A DNA stretch of 34,522 nt from Betaproteobacteria bacterium (GTDB lineage: Bacteria; Pseudomonadota; Gammaproteobacteria; Burkholderiales; Casimicrobiaceae). The DNA lies in contig JAPUER010000062.1 of the NCBI GenBank assembly GCA_027492485.1, positions 10,680 to 45,201 of the forward strand. Direction: 5' to 3'. Positions 209 through 21,379 of this stretch are shown piece by piece (the first letter of the stretch is position 1; every line of letters starts with the position of its first letter). The notes under the pieces are model-generated. The model made no database searches, was not told the origin of the DNA, and was given only the letters and a program-made list of their open reading frames with translations. Made by a program: the position numbers and the translations under genes.

Positions 209-319
209 CTAGTGTGCAATTTGTAATGGCGTTGAGTACCAAATGACCGTCGCGAGCGTGGCTGCGAAGCTGCCAACAGTTGCGGTACCGATCCAGTTGG
301 TCAGGTTGCGGAAATTCAC
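209..319 (-). CDS. 36-aa single-span membrane peptide, unknown
   Basis: This is a GTG-started frame of 36 codons preceded by AGGGGGAAGC, a good ribosome binding site about five bases from the start. The product begins MNFRNLTNWIG, has a hydrophobic stretch at about residues 13-30 (TVGSFAATLATVIWY), and ends STPLQIAH. That predicts one short membrane span. I do not recognise a family. It has the same strand and the same length (36 aa) as the peptide at 1679-1789, and both have a polar N-terminus followed by one hydrophobic segment. It may therefore belong to the same peptide cluster. It could be a small membrane toxin, a peptide subunit, or chance; the ribosome binding site and the hydrophobic pattern favour a real gene. 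Confidence 0.42.
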   Translation of the reverse strand: MNFRNLTNWIGTATVGSFAATLATVIWYSTPLQIAH

Positions 320-617: not shown

Positions 618-899
618 TCATTTCGTGACGAAGAACTGGAGGCCGAGGTTCGGCGCCGTTGTGATCCCCCAAATCGCGAAATGCACCAGGAGGACGATAA
701 GGCTTCGCGACAATGTTCTCCAGCGTATGGCGAAGATCCATATGAGCGCGGTCGCAAGCCCAGTCAATGTCCAAAGCGCAACACCCGTGTAGTTTGCAGC
801 GGTGCACGCCGTCACAACCCGTCCGCAGACGAACAAGCCAACACCTACACGCGCGGTGTCAGAAGTAATTAGCAAAAGATAAATGAGATTAGCCAGCAT
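618..899 (-). CDS. 93-aa multi-span membrane protein; candidate immunity-type protein
   Basis: The product starts MLANLIYLLLITSD and has about three hydrophobic segments: residues 2-32 (the weakest), 37-58 (TGVALWTLTGLATALIWIFAI) and 67-84 (SLIVLLVHFAIWGITTA). A basic loop, RWRTLSRS, sits between the last two, so this should be a small inner-membrane protein. No family is recognised. It lies directly downstream of the short double-glycine peptide genes on the same strand. Class II microcin and bacteriocin immunity proteins are typically small, multi-span and encoded next to the precursor, so an immunity role is a reasonable inference but no more than that. The ribosome binding site is weak, and an in-frame stop just upstream fixes this ATG as the first available start. 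Confidence 0.55.
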   Translation of the reverse strand: MLANLIYLLLITSDTARVGVGLFVCGRVVTACTAANYTGVALWTLTGLATALIWIFAIRWRTLSRSLIVLLVHFAIWGITTAPNLGLQFFVTK

Positions 900-969
900 G
901 ATCCGAAATCCCGATCATGTGGTCGGTGGTCTGACAAATCTGCTCAAACCACCGATACGCGATCAAATG

Positions 970-1110
970 CTATTTGTACTGAATCCAGAAACAAACTGTT
1001 ACTTCGCCAAACCCATCCGGCGTGATCGGATTCTTGGTCACGGTCACACAGCGCAATGGGGATGTATACGGACCCATCCCGGGATTGTCACTACCCACGA
1101 CGTTTTGCAT
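970..1110 (-). CDS. Short DNPGMGPY peptide; leader probably frame-broken
   Basis: The open frame from ATG at 1110 gives 46 aa. Residues 8-15 are DNPGMGPY, followed by TSPLRCVTVTKNP and a tail ending VTVCFWIQYK, with cysteines at 21 and 40. The same DNPGMGPY block, with a similar following sequence, occurs in the next peptide upstream (1154-1330), so the two are paralogues and this frame is coding. From this ATG only seven residues (MQNVVGS) precede the block. Another ATG at 1131-1133 starts MNKFRYS and lies 44 bases before the block. Adding one base would make exactly 15 codons, the leader length of the paralogue, ending in GS. A one-base deletion, real or a sequencing error, is therefore likely, and the intact gene would span 970-1133. 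Function is unknown; a secreted peptide is inferred. Confidence 0.5.
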   Translation of the reverse strand: MQNVVGSDNPGMGPYTSPLRCVTVTKNPITPDGFGEVTVCFWIQYK

Positions 1111-1153
1111 ATCGAGTATCGAAATTTATTCATGCGCACTGCGTAGGACTTTG

Positions 1154-1330
1154 TTAATACGTGACATACGCTTGGCCGCAAAGTTGCAATTCCTGACCGT
1201 CGACATGTACACCGAAACCTTTGCAAATCACGTGACTAATCGGCATTCGAATCGGCGCATCGTACGGTCCCATGCCAGGATTGTCGCCGCCAGTAATTTG
1301 CGTCGTATCCGCGACTGGAATGTTTTTCAT
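1154..1330 (-). CDS. 58-aa double-glycine-leader peptide, microcin-like precursor
   Basis: ATG at 1330 is preceded by GCGGAGGAAACAAAAA, a strong ribosome binding site. The N-terminus is MKNIPVADTTQITGG, fifteen residues. The colicin V leader, MRTLTLNELDSVSGG, is also fifteen and matches in pattern: basic residue at 2, aliphatic at 4, acidic at 8, V/I at 12, S/T at 13 and GG at 14-15. Cleavage after GG would release a 43-residue peptide starting DNPGMGPYDAPIRMP, with cysteines at precursor positions 36 and 51. Known double-glycine precursors are cut by C39-peptidase ABC exporters; none is visible in this window. The paralogue at 970-1110 shares DNPGMGPY. The mature part is shorter and less glycine-rich than classical class II microcins, so it could instead be a signalling peptide. 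Coding status is well supported; function is inferred. Confidence 0.66.
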   Translation of the reverse strand: MKNIPVADTTQITGGDNPGMGPYDAPIRMPISHVICKGFGVHVDGQELQLCGQAYVTY

Positions 1331-1438
1331 TTTTTGTTTCCTCCGCGCACTGTTATGGAGAGCCCAGCGCTATGCGCGAATCTCGCGCCGGGCAGATTTG
1401 AGTTGCTTTTTTGTCCGTTACCGTCCCCGGCAATGGGA

Positions 1439-1579
1439 CTACAGACCGGGGATATTCGGCAGTGCGTCCGGCCCTTGTCCATATGCGTGGACAAATTCCT
1501 CTTTCGTGGGCAGCATTAGCGCCGACGGCAACGTGCCTCCGCCGACGTTGATCGCGCTGGACGTGCTGATTGCTTTCGT
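1439..1579 (-). CDS. 46-aa double-glycine-leader peptide with ACG at the start position
   Basis: The frame read from ACG at 1577-1579 gives a 46-residue product beginning xKAISTSSAINVGGG. Its tail ends in GQGPDALPNIPGL before TAG. Upstream is AAAGGAAACAAAG, nearly the same as the AGGAAACAAAAA before the neighbouring 58-aa precursor, so ACG stands exactly where ATG is expected. With it as residue 1, the leader has K2, I4, V12 and G14-G15, the same spacing as the paralogue and colicin V. Either ACG is used as a rare start, or an ATG has mutated or been miscalled. The only other start in the frame is TTG at 1660, which has no ribosome binding site and gives an uncharacteristic N-terminus. The predicted mature peptide is about 31 residues and has no cysteine. 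Function is unknown. Confidence 0.5.
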   Translation of the reverse strand, partial: TKAISTSSAINVGGGTLPSALMLPTKEEFVHAYGQGPDALPNIPGL

Positions 1580-1678
1580 CTTTGTTTCCTTTACTTGTTG
1601 TGATGACGCTCTTCCCGGGGCCTGGGAATCTGCGGTCGTCTCATCGCCTCGATCTTGCAAGCGGGGCGTGGGGCGATC

Positions 1679-1789
1679 TCAGAATGCCTGCGCCAGCACC
1701 GACACCAGTAGCCCGCCCCAGGCGATGATGGTGAAGGCGGTGCCGAATTCGTCGTAGCGACGGCGCTTGATTTGGGTCGTTGTGTTCAT
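1679..1789 (-). CDS. 36-aa basic/hydrophobic membrane peptide, first gene of the cluster
   Basis: ATG at 1789 follows GCAGAGGAAAAC, a clear ribosome binding site. The product begins MNTTTQIKRRRYDEFG, with a KRRR cluster at residues 8-11. It then has a hydrophobic stretch, TAFTIIAWGGLLVSVLAQAF, running to the C-terminus. This predicts one membrane span with the N-terminus held on the cytoplasmic side by the basic cluster. No family is recognised. It is the first gene of the minus-strand cluster, about 148 bases downstream of the lux-box-like dyad at 1937-1956, and the same length as the membrane peptide at 209-319. The open frame runs further upstream, but the ribosome binding site and composition place the start here. 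A signalling, toxin or membrane-complex role cannot be decided from sequence. Confidence 0.58.
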   Translation of the reverse strand: MNTTTQIKRRRYDEFGTAFTIIAWGGLLVSVLAQAF

Positions 1790-2263
1790 GTTTTCCTCTG
1801 CTTGCTCTTTGTGGTTTCGCCTGCGGTGTGGCGGTTTGTCGCTTGGCGCGTCTGTCGTCGCGCCTCGCTTCACTTTCGTCTCGCGGTGTTTTCGATCACC
1901 GTGAGCCGTATTCAAATCACTTTCCGCAATTTCCGTAACTGTCAGTTCTGACAGGTAGGGCAGAAATGGCCCCCCGCTCGGCAAGACACAAGCCCCGGTC
2001 ACCGCCGATCTTCGCCGAGGCAGACTCGGAATACAGCGTCTTTCGCAAGTCCAGAATGAACGGGGGGCTTGACCGTTGGATGCCGGGTGCAGACCCTTGG
2101 CCTTTGGGTCAGAGCCTGTCCCGGCGAAGGCCGAGGCGAACCGTTCACACCTGTGCAGGACGGGCATTTGCTTAGACCTGCCTGGGCGCGCGGCGATGCC
2201 TGCTTGTGACGGCAGCAACTTGCTTGAGCAGAATGTCTTCATGCTTATCAAGTCTGCCGATGA
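1790..2263. other. Upstream region of the peptide cluster
   Basis: No convincing gene is seen in these 474 bases on either strand. The only structured feature is the perfect dyad at 1939-1954 inside a lux-box-like 20-mer. If that box activates transcription toward lower coordinates at the usual distance of about 42 bases, transcription would begin near 1904. The leader before the first peptide gene would then be about 115 bases. A weak -10-like TGAATA lies near 1909-1914 on the minus strand. Confidence 0.4.
1937..1956 (-). promoter_or_regulatory. lux/las-box-like 20-bp dyad
   Basis: The plus strand reads AACTGTCAGTTCTGACAGGT. Its core is a perfect inverted repeat, CTGTCAG-TT-CTGACAG (1939-1954). 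The well-known las box OP1 of the Pseudomonas lasB promoter is ACCTGCCAGTTCTGGCAGGT; 17 of 20 positions agree. LuxR-family acyl-homoserine-lactone receptors bind such 20-bp dyads as dimers. The site lies about 150 bases upstream of the 36-aa peptide gene at 1679-1789 and would fit a promoter for the minus-strand peptide cluster. No luxI or luxR gene is present in the window, so the cognate regulator is not shown. Another dyad-binding regulator is possible. Confidence 0.55.
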
Positions 2264-3546: not shown

Positions 3547-6198
3547 TTACGTCGTCGCCGACGCTCCGGCGATGATCGTTTTCTCGATGACCTCGCGCAC
3601 GTTGGCCGACAGCGCGTCATGGGCAGCCAGTTTGTGCAGGACCATGCCCTGCAGGGTGCGTGCCGGTTCCGTGCACTTGTGCCAGCGCGAAAAGACGTCG
3701 CAGAAGCGCGCCGCCAGCGAAGGGTTCTGGGCGTCGAAGCGCAGGATCTGCTCTGCGATGAAGGCGTAGCCGCTGCCGTCGCTGGCGTGCAGACCGCACC
3801 AGTTCTGGTCGCCGAATGTCTGCACTACCGCACGGACGCGGTTCGGGTTCTTGCCGTCGAAGCGCTCGTGGGCGAGCAGCGCGCGCACCGCGGCAACCGC
3901 CTTGCCCTCGCCACTGCGCAGCGCGCCTGCCTCCAGCGCGAACCAGCGATTGAGCATCGACAGATCGTGCTGCCAGCGGTCGTGAAACGCGCCGTACATG
4001 CGGTCGCGTTCGCGGCAGGGCTGGTCGCGCAGTGCCGTCATCGCACTCATCACGTCGGTCAGGTTGTCTGCGGCCTGCCATTGCGTCAGGCAAAGCGCCT
4101 GTGTTTCGGCATCGCCGGCCGCATTGATCAGCGCCAGCAGCACGCCCGCGAGCGCGCGATGCGCGGTCGCCGCAACGTCCGGCGACCACGGGTTGGCGGC
4201 AAGCGCAACCCGCTCGTGGCCGTAGCGTTCGATGATCGCCGCGCGGTGGGTGACGGCAAGGCCGCGCAGCAAGCGGTCGCGGACAGCGGCAATGGCGGCC
4301 GGATCGATCCGCTCCTCACGGTCGGCGATTTCGCCGTGCGCCGGGAAGCTCAGCATGTGCGCAATCAGTGCCGGGTCGGTGCGGTAGTCGGCAAGCAGCG
4401 CGGCAATCGCATGATCGAACGCTGCCACACCGCCGCCATCGGCGCGCACATTGTCGTAAGCGCGGAAGAACAGCGTGCGCATCGCCTGCCAGCGCGCCAC
4501 GCCGTCGTCGTCGTGCATGACAAGGGCCGCCAGCTGGGCGTCGCTGTAATCGAAATTGACGCGCACCGGCGCCGAGAACCCGCGCAGCAGCGAGGGCACC
4601 GGTCGCGCCGGTACATCGTCGAAGACAAAGCTGTGCGACTTTTCTGTCACATCGAGCACGCGCGCTGCCGTGCTGCCGCTGCCTTCCTGCAACAGCGCCA
4701 CCGCGAGCGGCACCACCATCGGCTGCTGGCCGGACTGACCGGACACCGGCGCCATGGCTTGCTTGACGTGCAGCGTGTAGCGTGCCTGCCCGGCATCGTA
4801 TTCGTCGCTGACGTCGAGCTGCGGTGTACCCGCCCGACTGTACCAGCGCTTGAATTGACTGAGGTCGCGTCCGCTGGCGTCGGCCATCGCGGCAACGAAA
4901 TCGTCGCAGGTCGCCGCCGTGCCATCGTGGCGCGCAAAGTAGAGATCGGTGCCCTTGCGATAGGCCTCGGCGCCGAGCAGCGTGCGCAGCATGCGGATGA
5001 CCTCGGCGCCCTTTTCGTACACCGTGACAGTGTAGAAATTGTCGATCGCTTCGTACTCGTCCGGGCGGATCGGGTGCGCCATCGGCCCGGCATCCTGCGC
5101 GAACTGGCGCGACTGCATGAAGGCGGTTTCGTCGATGCGCACGACGGCGGGCGAGGCGCGGGTGGCCGTGTATTGCTGTTCGCGGAAGACGGTAAAGCCT
5201 TCCTTGAGCGATAGCTGGAACCAGTCGCGGCAGGTGACCCGGTTGCCGCTCCAGTTGTGGAAGTATTCGTGCGCCACGATGGCGTCGACAGTCAGGAAGT
5301 CGGTATCGGTCGCGGTTTCCCGGTCGGCCAGCAGAAAACGGGAATTGAAAATGTTCAATCCCTTGTTTTCCATCGCACCCATGTTGAAGTCGTCGGCCGC
5401 GTAGATCATGAAGCGGTCGAGGTCATATTCGCGACCGTAGGCTTGTTCGTCCCAGCGCATCGCAGCCTTCAGGCATTGCATCGCCCAGGTGCAACGCGGC
5501 AGATTGGCGGTCGTTGAGTAAATTTCGAGCAGAACCTCGCGACCGGATGCCGTGACGAAGCGATCCTGCAGGCGGTCGATGTCGCCGGCAACCAGCGCGA
5601 ACAGATAGCAGGGCTTGCGGTGCGGGTCGTGCCAGACGGCTTCGTGGCGATCATCGCCGAGGTCGCGTGTGCTGACCAGATTGCCGTTGGACAGCAGCAC
5701 CGGAAAGCCGGCACGCGGCGCGCGGATGGTGACCTGGTATTCCGACAGCACGTCGGGCCGATCCGGGAAGTAGGTGATGCGCCGGAACCCTTCCGCTTCG
5801 CATTGCGTGCAGAAGGTGCCGTTGGTGACGTACAGCCCTTCGAGCGCGAGATTGGCCGTCGGGTTGAAACGGGTGACGATGGAGAGGGCCGGACGTTCGC
5901 CCGCGGCGCTCATTGCCGCTGCGGCAATGGTGATGCGGTCACCGTTTTCGCTCTGCTGCCACGCGGTCGCCGGCAACGCTTCGCCGTTGAGCTGGACGCT
6001 GACCAGCGTCAGGCCGACGCCGTCGAGTTCGAGCGCGGGCGATGCCTCGTCGGCAGCGGGGTTGCGACGTAGCGAGAGTGTGGAGGCGACCTGCGTGGCG
6101 AGCGGATCGAGATCGAAGCAAAGCTCGACCCGATCCACCAGAAAGCCCGGAGCGCGGTAATCGCCACGCCGGATCACCGCGTTTTCCGGATGCTTCAT
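3547..6198 (-). CDS. pepN: Aminopeptidase N (M1 family zinc metallopeptidase)
   Basis: This cytosolic aminopeptidase removes N-terminal residues from peptides during protein turnover. The 883-aa product matches Escherichia coli-type PepN in length and order: an N-terminal beta-domain (about 1-190), the catalytic thermolysin-like domain, a small beta-domain, and a helical C-terminal domain. The substrate-recognition motif GAMEN is at residues 274-278. The zinc site HEYFH is at 310-314, and the third ligand is E333 in LSLKEGF. The gene starts nine bases after the stop of the FKBP-type isomerase gene, so the two are probably co-transcribed, with hemB following. Confidence 0.97.
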   Translation of the reverse strand: MKHPENAVIRRGDYRAPGFLVDRVELCFDLDPLATQVASTLSLRRNPAADEASPALELDGVGLTLVSVQLNGEALPATAWQQSENGDRITIAAAAMSAAGERPALSIVTRFNPTANLALEGLYVTNGTFCTQCEAEGFRRITYFPDRPDVLSEYQVTIRAPRAGFPVLLSNGNLVSTRDLGDDRHEAVWHDPHRKPCYLFALVAGDIDRLQDRFVTASGREVLLEIYSTTANLPRCTWAMQCLKAAMRWDEQAYGREYDLDRFMIYAADDFNMGAMENKGLNIFNSRFLLADRETATDTDFLTVDAIVAHEYFHNWSGNRVTCRDWFQLSLKEGFTVFREQQYTATRASPAVVRIDETAFMQSRQFAQDAGPMAHPIRPDEYEAIDNFYTVTVYEKGAEVIRMLRTLLGAEAYRKGTDLYFARHDGTAATCDDFVAAMADASGRDLSQFKRWYSRAGTPQLDVSDEYDAGQARYTLHVKQAMAPVSGQSGQQPMVVPLAVALLQEGSGSTAARVLDVTEKSHSFVFDDVPARPVPSLLRGFSAPVRVNFDYSDAQLAALVMHDDDGVARWQAMRTLFFRAYDNVRADGGGVAAFDHAIAALLADYRTDPALIAHMLSFPAHGEIADREERIDPAAIAAVRDRLLRGLAVTHRAAIIERYGHERVALAANPWSPDVAATAHRALAGVLLALINAAGDAETQALCLTQWQAADNLTDVMSAMTALRDQPCRERDRMYGAFHDRWQHDLSMLNRWFALEAGALRSGEGKAVAAVRALLAHERFDGKNPNRVRAVVQTFGDQNWCGLHASDGSGYAFIAEQILRFDAQNPSLAARFCDVFSRWHKCTEPARTLQGMVLHKLAAHDALSANVREVIEKTIIAGASATT

Positions 6199-17656: not shown

Positions 17657-19669
17657 TCATTGAACTGTAGCAGCAGTTGTTGCGCAGAACGCGATTCCTT
17701 CGTCCGCCCAGCCGGCGGCCGTCATGCTGCTTTGGGTGGTGACCGAAGTCGAATAGCGGTGATTCGGGGTTTTGCCGCCGGCTGCCGCGCGGAAGCTCCG
17801 GTAAATCGGCACCGGTGCGGTCGCGGGGCAGCTCGTTGTCGTTGCCGCCTTGTAGATTGCGAAGTCGTAGCCTTCATTGCTGAAACCGGTGACGGTGCCG
17901 GCCGCGATTGCGCTGGCAATGAGCGCGCAGTCGGTCGCCCTGAAACCGTAGAAATGCGAGCTGGTGAACGGTGAGGCGATGCTGATGTAGTAGCGGCACA
18001 CCGAGTCCTCGGCGGCGGTCAGGTCGGACGCAAGCGCCGACTTTGCCTGAAACGTGGCGCCACTGCGGCGAAAGCCGGCGGTGTTGTCGAGCAGGTATTG
18101 CTCATCCGGACGCCCGCTGACGAACCAGGCATCCAGTGCCGTGTTGTAAAACTCGGCCACCGTCACGATGGTCGGGTTGTACTCGAACGCGCCCATATCG
18201 ACGGTGCTGCCGTAGCTGCGCTGAAAACCGCTGCCACGCTGGTCGGCGCTGAGGCTGACGCCGTTGCTGCCGGTGTCGATCGCCGGACTGGTCGCAGCCA
18301 GCGCGTGGGTGCGGGTGTTGCCACCGTTGAATGCGAGGGCGAGCAATTTCGGGTCGCTGCCGGTCAGGTTGCCGCTGCCCGAGATGGTTGCGTCGCTGCG
18401 CCGCACCAGGCTGGTGGTCACCGCCCAGTTGGTCGCGAAACTGGCGCCGGCATTGCTCAAATCGTAGTAACTGCTGGAACCGGTGTTGGTCATGGCGACG
18501 ATCGAACTGTCGATGCCATACGTCGGCTCGCGCGTGGTGGTGCTGGCGCCCGCTACGGTGCACGCAGAGCGCGTGATGGCGGCGCCACTGCTGGCGGTGC
18601 GGAGGCTGTTGTAAGCGATCGTACTGTTGTCGACAGACAGCCCGGCATTGCCGGCGACGGCGATGGCCGCGGCGTTGCCACTGGCACCGCTGACGACGTT
18701 GCCGGACACGGTTGCGTTCACCAGCGCGAGCGTCGTCTCGGTGGCCGACGTCTGCGCCGACGCGCTGGCGTTGGCGTGATTGATGCCGCCGCCGGCCAAT
18801 GCGGCGCTGTTGTCGGCAACCTCACTGTTCTGCACCAGCACCGAGGCGGCGACCAGACCGCTCTTCGACGGGTACGTTACGTAGATGCCACCACCCGATG
18901 CGCCGGTCGCGGTGTTGCCGACGATGCGGCTCTGGTTGATGCTGACGGTCGCAGGGCCGGCGATCGCAATGCCACCGCCCGAGCGCACGGCCGTGTTGCC
19001 GCTGACGGTACTTGCCGAGATGGTGACCGCCGCTGCGCTGCCCGCCGCCAGCGTTGCTTCGTAGCCAACGTAGAGCCCGCCGCCCAGCGCCTGCGTCGTA
19101 GCGGCCGCACAGCCGGTGCTGTTGCCGCTGACGGTGGTTCCCGCCAGCGTCAGTGTCTGGCCGCTGCGGCGCATCGCCCAGGCCAGCGCGCCGCCGTTGC
19201 GAGCCGCCGTGTTGCCGCTGAGCACGACGTTGGTGAGGGTCAGCGATTCGGTCGCGAGGATGGCGCCGCCCGAGCCGCCGGACGGGGTTGGACAGGTGCC
19301 GCTGGCGGCGCCCCGGCTCAACGTCATGCCGCTCAGCGCGACCGGCGCGTCGGCAGCACTGCTGCCGGCGACGATGCTGAATATGCGCGAGCTGCCGTTG
19401 CCGCTGATGGTGAGGCTTGCCGCGCCCGGCCCGACAAGGTTGAGGCTTTTGGCGATGGCGATCTCGCCACCGGTCAGCGTGAGCGTACCGCTCGCCGTGA
19501 TATTGATGATGTCGCCTGCCGCAGCCGATGCGACGGCGGCGCGCAGACTGCCGCTGCCGCTATCGGCCAGCGAGGCGACATTGATCGTTGCGGCGTTGCT
19601 GGTGGCCGTTGCGCCGAATGCGGCAAACGCCGCGAGACGGGCCGCGCGAGCGAGTGGATGGTGATGCAT
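17657..19669 (-). CDS. Secreted parallel beta-helix protein with DUF5648-like C-terminus
   Basis: The product is 670 aa, starting at ATG 19669 after an excellent ribosome binding site, CAGGAGACCTC. A signal peptide, MHHHPLARAARLAAFAAFGA plus TATSNA, is followed by NVASLADSGSGSLRAAV, the opening seen in 'choice-of-anchor Q' and related beta-helix proteins. The central 400 residues repeat short units with SGNTA, GGGI and NSTI patterns, as in parallel beta-helices. The last 170 residues or so change character: AEFYNTALDAWFVSG, paired cysteines, PVPIYRSFRA, PNHRYST and GWADEGIAFC. This resembles the DUF5648 lectin-like repeat. Probable role: surface or extracellular binding or carbohydrate interaction; no catalytic residues can be assigned. 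It is a paralogue of the gene 18 bases upstream. Confidence 0.85.
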   Translation of the reverse strand: MHHHPLARAARLAAFAAFGATATSNAATINVASLADSGSGSLRAAVASAAAGDIINITASGTLTLTGGEIAIAKSLNLVGPGAASLTISGNGSSRIFSIVAGSSAADAPVALSGMTLSRGAASGTCPTPSGGSGGAILATESLTLTNVVLSGNTAARNGGALAWAMRRSGQTLTLAGTTVSGNSTGCAAATTQALGGGLYVGYEATLAAGSAAAVTISASTVSGNTAVRSGGGIAIAGPATVSINQSRIVGNTATGASGGGIYVTYPSKSGLVAASVLVQNSEVADNSAALAGGGINHANASASAQTSATETTLALVNATVSGNVVSGASGNAAAIAVAGNAGLSVDNSTIAYNSLRTASSGAAITRSACTVAGASTTTREPTYGIDSSIVAMTNTGSSSYYDLSNAGASFATNWAVTTSLVRRSDATISGSGNLTGSDPKLLALAFNGGNTRTHALAATSPAIDTGSNGVSLSADQRGSGFQRSYGSTVDMGAFEYNPTIVTVAEFYNTALDAWFVSGRPDEQYLLDNTAGFRRSGATFQAKSALASDLTAAEDSVCRYYISIASPFTSSHFYGFRATDCALIASAIAAGTVTGFSNEGYDFAIYKAATTTSCPATAPVPIYRSFRAAAGGKTPNHRYSTSVTTQSSMTAAGWADEGIAFCATTAATVQ

Positions 19670-19687
19670 GAGGTCTCCTGGCAGCAA

Positions 19688-21379
19688 TTACGGCAGACTG
19701 AACCCGCAATTGGTATTGAGGTGGTTGCGAACGGCCGCCCAGGTGGGGCGGGTGCCGAGCGTGTTGATGGCGCCGCTGATGACGGCGTCGCCGGCGTAGC
19801 CAAGCAGGATGCGGGCGAGCATCAGGCCGTCGGTGGCGGCGAGCAGATTGCCATCGCCATCGAGATCGAAACTGCAGCCGCCGGTCGCGGCGGCAGTCAG
19901 GGTTGCTTCGTAGGCGCCGATATCGGGCGTGCCACCGAAAACACGCACCCCGCCGCGCTGGTCGGCGGCCAGGCCGAGCGGATTGCTGCCGGCGTTGAGC
20001 GCGGGGCTGGTCGCCACCAGCGCATGCGAACGGGTGCTGCCGCCGTTCCAGCCGAGCGCCATCAGCTGCGGGTCAACCCCGGTCAGGTTAGCGCTGCCGC
20101 TTAGCGTGACTGCGGTCTGGCGCACCAGACTCTGATTCGCGCTCCAGGCGTTGGCAAAGGAAAGGCCGCCATCCGACAAATCGGCGTAGCCATTGGCGCC
20201 GCCGCTGGTCATGGCAACGATGGTGCTGGCAAGGGTTGCCAGCGGCTCCGTGCTTACGCTGCACAGCGAGCGCACGATGCCGGCGCCGCTGGCGTTGGCA
20301 GCCGCTTCATTGTGCGCGACCGTGCAGTTGTTGAGGGTCAGCGCGACATTGCCGGCCAGACTCACCGCCGCGCCGTCACCTGCGGTTCCCCGCACGACAT
20401 TGCCCGACACGGTGCTGTTGGTCAGCGTGACGCCGCTGCGCCGGGCGTTCGCCTGCTGCGTGCTGGCCAGATTGGCCGCAGCAATGGCGCCGCCAGCGAG
20501 CGCTGCAACGTTGTTCGATAGCTCGCTCGCGTTGAAACCGGCGCTCGGTGTCGCGACCGTGCTCGCACCCGGCGCCACGACATAGGCGCCACCGCCATAA
20601 CCGGTGATGGCACTGTTGCCAACGATGCGGGTGGACGCCACCGAAACTGCGAGCGGCCCCGCCAGCGCAACGCCACCACCGTGTCGCTGGGCACTGTTGC
20701 CGAGCAGACCGACGGTGGCGAGGGTCACGGTGCCCTGGGCGCTGCTGTCGACCGTGGCGTCATACCCGGCAAAAAGTCCGCCGCCGATGCCCCCAGCTGT
20801 GGCGTTGGCGCAGCCGGCACTGTTACCGGCGAGGCGCACATTGCCGAGCGCAAGCGTCTGACCGTTTCGGCGCATCGCCCAGGCCAGGCCGCCGCCGTTG
20901 CGCGCTGCGTAGCTATCGGTGATGACAACGTCGGTCAGCGTCAACGATTCGGTCGCGGCAAGCGCACCGCCCGAGCCGGTCGTCGGCGCCGGGCAAGAGC
21001 CCGCCGCGTAGCCGTTGGCGAGCGTGACGCCGCTGATGGTCACGGGCGCGTCGGCGGCGCCGGCAATGGTGGCCGAAACCTTGAAAACACGCGACGTACC
21101 GTTGCCGCTGATGGTCAGCACGGCGCTGCCTGGCCCGGCAATGGTGAGTGACTTGGTGATCGGGATTTCGCCACTGGTCAAGGTGAGCGTTCCGGTCGCC
21201 GCAATGGTGACGCTATCGCCTGCCGAGGCGGCGGCGACGACCGCGCGCAGCGAGCCGCTGCCGCTGTCGGCGAGCGAGCTCACGGTGTAGCTGGCGGCGT
21301 GCGCAAGCGGCGCCGCCAATGCCAGCGAAATCATTGCGCCGTACAGCGTGGCGGACACAGCGAAGGGCCGTGGTTGCAT
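19688..21379 (-). CDS. Secreted parallel beta-helix protein with dockerin-like C-terminus
   Basis: The product is 563 aa; ATG at 21379 follows GGAGGCCGCC. The signal peptide ends around AAPLAHA (residue 28). The mature start, SYTVSSLADSGSGSLRAVV, and the long beta-helix body closely track the downstream paralogue block by block (GGALAATESLTLTDVV, GGGLAWAMRRNGQTL, NSTVSGNVV). The final 62 residues differ: CSFDLDGDGNLLAATDGLML followed by ARILLGY is a calcium-binding dockerin/EF-hand-like loop with helix. No scaffoldin or cohesin is visible here, so the module may simply stabilise or anchor the protein. It is likely secreted to the surface. It lies between the dioxygenase-like gene (12-base gap) and its paralogue (18-base gap), consistent with tandem duplication in an operon. 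Confidence 0.86.
   Translation of the reverse strand: MQPRPFAVSATLYGAMISLALAAPLAHAASYTVSSLADSGSGSLRAVVAAASAGDSVTIAATGTLTLTSGEIPITKSLTIAGPGSAVLTISGNGTSRVFKVSATIAGAADAPVTISGVTLANGYAAGSCPAPTTGSGGALAATESLTLTDVVITDSYAARNGGGLAWAMRRNGQTLALGNVRLAGNSAGCANATAGGIGGGLFAGYDATVDSSAQGTVTLATVGLLGNSAQRHGGGVALAGPLAVSVASTRIVGNSAITGYGGGAYVVAPGASTVATPSAGFNASELSNNVAALAGGAIAAANLASTQQANARRSGVTLTNSTVSGNVVRGTAGDGAAVSLAGNVALTLNNCTVAHNEAAANASGAGIVRSLCSVSTEPLATLASTIVAMTSGGANGYADLSDGGLSFANAWSANQSLVRQTAVTLSGSANLTGVDPQLMALGWNGGSTRSHALVATSPALNAGSNPLGLAADQRGGVRVFGGTPDIGAYEATLTAAATGGCSFDLDGDGNLLAATDGLMLARILLGYAGDAVISGAINTLGTRPTWAAVRNHLNTNCGFSLP

Follow-up and report, generated by a model that had tools for sequence, protein, structure and literature searches.

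A probable LuxR-activated regulon of exported double-glycine peptides dispersed over the genome of a betaproteobacterium

Near one end of a 34,522-nucleotide stretch of a Betaproteobacteria bacterium genome (assembly GCA_027492485.1, contig JAPUER010000062.1, positions 10,680 to 45,201; hereafter the window) lies a small operon that encodes short peptide precursors with double-glycine (GG) leaders. This operon probably belongs to a dispersed regulon activated by a LuxR-type protein, in which exported GG peptides of the class II bacteriocin or microcin kind are expressed together with an exporter. Precursors with relatives, their leaders, a shared promoter motif, linkage to a LuxR gene, an exporter and a sibling peptide of class IIb type are all found in the genome. 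From this anatomy and from what is known of the families, we infer binding by LuxR, cleavage of the leaders, killing, immunity and signaling. A sequence-only reading of the window had proposed a microcin-like operon under a lux box, and that interpretation is supported. In what follows G000 is the source genome, C62 is the window's contig, and other G numbers are comparison genomes.

The proposed mechanism starts with the LuxR-type activator encoded on contig C58, which would bind a dyad of 20 bp whose centre lies some 43 bp ahead of the presumed start point. The activator would turn on the window operon (a membrane peptide, three GG precursors and a further membrane protein), the cluster of precursors on C58, and an exporter on contig C6 made of HlyD and a C39-peptidase ABC protein. 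The exporter would cleave after the GG or GS site and release short peptides, whose most likely effect is to inhibit related bacteria, with small membrane proteins and PF02517 (CPBP-type) proteins predicted to protect the producer.

The shared promoter motif connects precursors, exporter and LuxR-type receptor over three contigs. The window's box recurs with small differences at two sites on C58, upstream of the exporter on C6, and inside anmK on C29. A search of 100 genomes with the 17-mer ACTGTCAGNNCTGACAG gave nine sites in five genomes, five of them in this genome, and none in the reversed control. Six of the nine are promoter-like (the window, two on C58, and one each on C6, in G014 and in G003), and in every one of these T..AAT stands exactly 23 nt past the 16-bp core, which places the lux box at a class II promoter-type spacing. 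The sites are not independent, those of C58 and G003 being clearly homologous. A composite motif was then defined as the core, loosened to CTGTCANNNNTGACAG, plus the hexamer at its fixed spacing. Among 299 genomes it has 10 matches in seven genomes, four of them in this genome, and none in the reversed control. These are the six promoter-like sites and one site each in G140, G174, G042 and G100. The match in G140 precedes a LuxI gene (PF00765, 97 bits) and so serves as a positive control for the motif as a LuxR-type promoter, and the one in G174 precedes a short GG-type peptide. The earlier suggestion of a lux- or las-box-like dyad has gained ground: a putative LuxR-type site is supported by how the dyad recurs, by its spacing and by the LuxR gene to which it is linked.

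The C58 regulator has both an Autoind_bind and a GerE domain, each over cutoff, and its profile finds LasR as the best PDB match (E 1.1e-19). Among 199 genomes, close relatives (E < 1e-100) are present only in G000, G003 and G014; promoter-type boxes occurred in the same three when 100 genomes were scanned. In G003 and G014 the luxR gene is followed by the promoter-type box after 15 bp and 89 bp, respectively, much as on C58; no precursor was found after the box in G003. A scan of a contig collection confirmed two loci among 287 candidate stretches, both from already-known congeners, and the C58 LuxR had no match among viral contigs.

The elements that had been described on one strand are indeed all present on the minus strand, where the dyad, the 36-aa membrane peptide (TM36, a name used also for its copies), the three short peptide precursors and the hydrophobic protein of 93 aa follow one another from 1956 down to 618. 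Precursor 1 is, as described, the clearest, with a leader of 15 residues, MKNIPVADTTQITGG; five C58 peptides likewise have a short leader that ends in GG, GA or GS. Apart from itself, the matches of precursor 1 in a search of 60 genomes were precursor 2 at E 1.2e-4 and, at E 4.6e-4 with 44% over 27 residues, the peptide MKTLNQKELAMVSGG/DNPGQGPY... of the congener G002; everything else lay above E 0.1. The G002 homologue scores 15.2 with the bacteriocin_sig model, against a cutoff of 15.7. Precursor 3 shares 18 of 45 residues with its C58 paralogue (E 4e-10 for the single pair). Small frames of the operon recur in related genomes, precursor 1 in G002 and TM36 in G014. A tblastn search of a plasmid collection with precursor 1 and a C58 copy of TM36 found no match. 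A strict regular expression for GG leaders gave no convincing precursor at five loci (L005-L008 and L010), and it overlooked precursors on C35 that were found later. Judged by sequence, the elements of the window exceed chance.

The membrane proteins adjoin the precursors, and none of them reaches a family cutoff. TM36 accompanies precursors in both the window and the C58 cluster, and 18 of its 36 residues (50%) are identical in the C58 copy. In G014 a box-linked homologue of TM36 is found (E 5.8e-6), with a 63-aa TM36-type frame after the box, and a TM36-type match in G062 was set aside because it lies within a 467-aa frame. The family scan with TM36 gave MetS/MaAIMP-type matches alone, weak and far below cutoff. 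TM36 is a candidate for an immunity or accessory role. The 93-aa protein had been described as a multi-span membrane protein; a simple hydropathy scan gives it two hydrophobic spans, a weaker picture than the one described, and a membrane or immunity role for it is a guess from position.

The sister cluster lies on C58, a 174-kb contig of the same genome. On one strand it has the LuxR-type regulator, six GG precursors by our count (five with 15-residue leaders), two copies of TM36 (one interrupted by N) and two PF02517 proteins, both over cutoff. The unit of TM36 and precursor 3 in the window aligns at the DNA level with the C58 unit of TM36 and the MKEINSS peptide. A further peptide of this cluster, MNELNMTELDEVNGG/NWAII..., scores 25.0 with the class IIb model TIGR03949 (cutoff 21.5) and 35.7 with the lactococcin G-beta model, just under its cutoff of 37. 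Two other C58 peptides had no match in the NCBIfam scan.

A C39-type exporter with an HlyD partner, which the sequence-only reading had proposed to look for beyond the contig start, is encoded on C6, with further loci on C11 and C35. On C6 the dyad begins 82 bp before the start codon of the HlyD gene, and the C39-ABC gene follows. The C6 ABC protein scores 504 bits with the NHLP bacteriocin model TIGR03796, below its cutoff of 853. The C35 locus (L006 4787-10660) holds C39-ABC and HlyD genes, two longer GG precursors that match no NCBIfam family, and a second short C39-type frame. The C6 exporter may handle the window peptides. In G002 the DNPGQGPY precursor stands in a row with HlyD (HlyD_3, 58 bits), one further GG peptide, a protein of PF02517 (56 bits), a Peptidase_S51 protein (121.5 bits, L017 8720-9496) and a C39-ABC exporter that scores 104 bits for Peptidase_C39.

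Several observations weigh against the proposed regulon. For the composite matches in G042 and G100, the 2.5-3 kb inspected contains no LuxR-type target. No C39 match was found on C62, and the exporter sits on another contig. The 93-aa protein has no homologue beyond this genome among the 100 genomes searched. The window peptides gave no Pfam or NCBIfam match up to E 1 other than the weak ones of TM36, and in this respect the case is weaker than the sequence-only reading had it; curated class IIb models gave no match to them either, and precursor 3 was given Met as its first residue in these family scans. Lastly, two PF00765 searches found no LuxI in the draft source genome. No control genome matched in the first search, and the second found strong LuxI proteins in other relatives. 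Weak LuxI matches in G007, G011 and G014 (24.0, 26.3 and 30.5, cutoff 24) were set aside, the proteins scoring 107-112 bits as Acetyltransf_5. Because no LuxI was found, we regard the C58 LuxR as a solo, bearing in mind that the genome is a draft, and a response to cell density is only putative.

Two of the three precursors also show irregularities, which had been anticipated as a need for one start codon and one indel. Precursor 3 has ACG where the C58 paralogue has ATG at the aligned place. In precursor 2 the gene's own ATG gives just seven leader residues ahead of the GS site, and the upstream ATG sits in a different frame, which puts the complete leader out of frame. For these reasons the window operon may be partly decayed, or assembly errors may be present, and both possibilities tell against the regulon as proposed. 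It is conceivable, if somewhat doubtful, that the window operon is a decaying remnant in which one start codon and one reading frame have gone, with the C58 paralogues as the functional genes. Precursor 1, TM36, the box and the -10 element are nevertheless all intact, and errors near the assembly edge, with 10 N directly before the window, would look identical to decay.

A different kind of alternative is suggested by the adjacency of short peptides to luxR genes. A short GG-type peptide is found near seven LuxR loci. It is downstream of luxR at G000:C58, G002:C1, G003:C228, G007:C16, G011:C1 and G015:C81, and it is divergent and about 1.1 kb from luxR at G174:C52, in another family. The LuxR proteins of G007, G011, G015, G003:C228 and G002 are more distant relatives, with the peptide within some hundreds of bases. 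The C58 peptide behind the box reads ...AIGGG/VGDVSSGPIVII, and tails elsewhere include FPVVPPLGGGG, FPIVPPNSTTP, TLEAFPIFPR and ...EDFPVIPR; of the short tails at all these loci, two end in FPVIPR and one in FPIFPR, and two begin with FPVVPP or FPIVPP. Five of the seven loci have a dyad, either between luxR and the peptide or immediately ahead of the peptide; in G011, G015 and G003:C228 it is of CTATCA type and stands between the two genes, and none was found at the G007 and G002 loci. Among 299 genomes, a profile built from three short peptides gives strong matches (E 8.3e-20 or lower) in its three source genomes alone; three weak matches elsewhere all lie inside longer frames. A scan of 30 LuxR loci for adjacent GG peptides gave four candidates against none in the reversed control; one of the four (L101) looks like chance, and the scan overlooked the C58 and G174 peptides.

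These peptides raise the possibility of signaling, not killing: exported short GG peptides near this LuxR family would themselves be the signal that LuxR senses, and the peptides of the window would belong to the same communication system. We consider this unlikely. The same holds for a self-contained peptide quorum-sensing module of betaproteobacteria, which might consist of the LuxR solo, the lux-type box and the short GG peptide, and it is just as improbable that the tail, about 7-12 residues long and frequently of the form FP[VI]xP, returns after export and activates LuxR to turn on the bacteriocin-like operons and the exporter. The number of peptide-bearing loci, the short and recurring tails, the dyads at most of these loci, and the lack of a LuxI match here, with those of three congeners better explained as acetyltransferases, speak for such a circuit. 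Other observations stand against it. Two LuxR loci with a box, G014:C168 and G003:C721, have no such short peptide that could be found, the G015 and G003:C228 peptides have GAAG-type cleavage sites that are not strictly GG, and the G002 LuxR is broken across frames (L125, G002:C1, about 4500-5600) ahead of an intact short GG peptide. The autoinducer-binding domain is close to that of LasR, and W60, D71, P72, W86 and G111 are invariant in an eight-row LuxR alignment (positions are in alignment numbering). The sibling peptide on C58, moreover, resembles a class IIb bacteriocin. If such a circuit were true, it would be a Gram-negative counterpart of the peptide pheromone circuits of Gram-positive bacteria, with a LuxR receptor and no LuxI.

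It is very improbable that the dyad is a transcription terminator or a chance palindrome instead of an operator. Chance or coding copies of the core do exist inside anmK (G000:C29 and G012:C3) and at G063:C22, yet these three have no hexamer on either strand and were set aside as promoters, in contrast to the fixed-spacing hexamer of the other six sites and the composite match before luxI; the terminator reading was rejected. Separately, the anmK-like gene (named by eye) of two species contains the 16-bp dyad core (L031 8105-8120 and L051 6218-6233).

The window opens directly after 10 N of C62 (L005 10670-10679), and its bases 1-60 are runs of G or C, so that the operon's end on that side is uncertain. 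A comparable run-rich stretch surrounds N on C29 (L031 near 4,850-4,950), and both look like poor contig ends. An assembly or binning artefact, for which this gap and the lower GC of 200-1960 (0.552, vs 0.646 from 2460 onward) could be cited, is extremely improbable: within this genome C58 (cluster GC 0.53) has a paralogous TM36-precursor 3 unit and the box, and C6 has the box too. The stretch from 618 to 1956 and the hemB-like gene at 2468 also share one gap-free stretch of the assembly.

The features of the probable operon are collected in Table 1. The possible peptide at its far end has no membrane span in a hydropathy scan. Elsewhere in the window, a short frame on the plus strand at about 2300-2440, ...HKLICATCGTKISYAEGKFCWGNEKRFGGLQYCREHQKAF, may be a small zinc-binding protein (by eye), and two neighbouring proteins, similar to each other and 676 and 563 aa long, at 17657-21379 on the minus strand have repeated VSGN-type motifs and are probably exported beta-helix proteins (by eye). 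The 676-aa protein has a C-terminal DUF5648 domain (36.9 bits).

Table 1. Features of the proposed peptide operon, in window coordinates
Feature	Position	Strand	Support
Lux-type box ACCTGTCAGAACTGACAGTT, proposed LuxR operator	1937..1956 (dyad core 1939-1954)	-	Recurrent core pattern
-10-like hexamer TTGAAT, 23 nt past the 16-bp core, spaced as in a class II lux-type promoter	1910..1915	-	
TM36, 36-aa single-span membrane peptide MNTTTQIKRRRYDEFGTAFTIIAWGGLLVSVLAQAF, ribosome-binding site (RBS) AGAGGAAAAC	1679..1789	-	C58 copy and G014 homologue
GG precursor 3, leader of 15 residues with GGG at its end, ACG in the start position, core TLPSAL...NIPGL	1439..1579	-	C58 paralogue
GG precursor 1, 58 aa, leader MKNIPVADTTQITGG, RBS GGAGGAAA, core DNPGMGPY... 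with two Cys	1154..1330	-	Congener homologue
GG precursor 2, core DNPGMGPY..., two Cys, complete leader out of frame	970..1110	-	Match to precursor 1
93-aa hydrophobic protein, candidate membrane/immunity protein	618..899	-	Role inferred from position only
Possible 36-aa peptide, GTG start, RBS AGGGGG, uncertain	209..319	-	Near assembly gap

The proposed regulon has features of several known systems. Class II microcins of the microcin V type, exported by a C39 peptidase-containing transporter (C39-PCAT), a membrane fusion protein (MFP) and TolC, are alike in the short leader ending in GG or GA, in C39-ABC and HlyD genes within the genome, and in small membrane proteins beside the precursors (PMC9746304). 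In the system described here, the exporter is on another contig, a lux-type box is present, and the cores match no family. Class IIb two-peptide bacteriocins (TIGR03949, lactococcin G-beta) are approached by the C58 sibling, which passes TIGR03949 with PF02517 proteins nearby; here the host is Gram-negative and the window peptides are unmatched. In the McbC operon of Moraxella catarrhalis, another Gram-negative case, a GG bacteriocin is encoded together with secretion genes and with a small immunity protein that does not resemble others. This is a single four-gene operon, and the portion of PMC2761928 available describes no LuxR control.

Biosynthetic clusters linked to luxR include bacteriocin types, and 47% of these clusters contain luxI (PMC5872303). 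The present case is alike in that bacteriocin-type clusters are linked to luxR, luxI being absent from about half of all the clusters in that source, and the accessible part of it describes neither a multi-locus GG-peptide regulon nor a short peptide beside luxR. The regulons of LasR and LuxR share the domain make-up, the dyad and the promoter spacing, and differ in that no LuxI was found here. The tyrosine of the LasR WxxxY motif falls in an insertion of the alignment, and the C58 protein has Gln four residues after the Trp.

Among the papers listed in searches of the open literature none was described as dealing with a LuxR-controlled GG-peptide regulon of this kind, or with a LuxR solo together with double-glycine peptides, although most subscription papers could not be searched and this absence is weak evidence. 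To our knowledge, few functions have been tested for the GG-leader peptides of Gram-negative bacteria outside Enterobacterales. Such peptides as signals in Gram-negative bacteria were reportedly treated by Dirix et al. in 2004, a study that PMC2761928 cites, and the short peptides beside luxR genes offer a concrete candidate for this older question of exported GG peptides as Gram-negative signals. Because the motif is shared across three contigs, the regulon is directly testable. If confirmed, it would tie a regulator of quorum-sensing type to peptide weapons, and possibly to peptide signals, in a Gram-negative bacterium.

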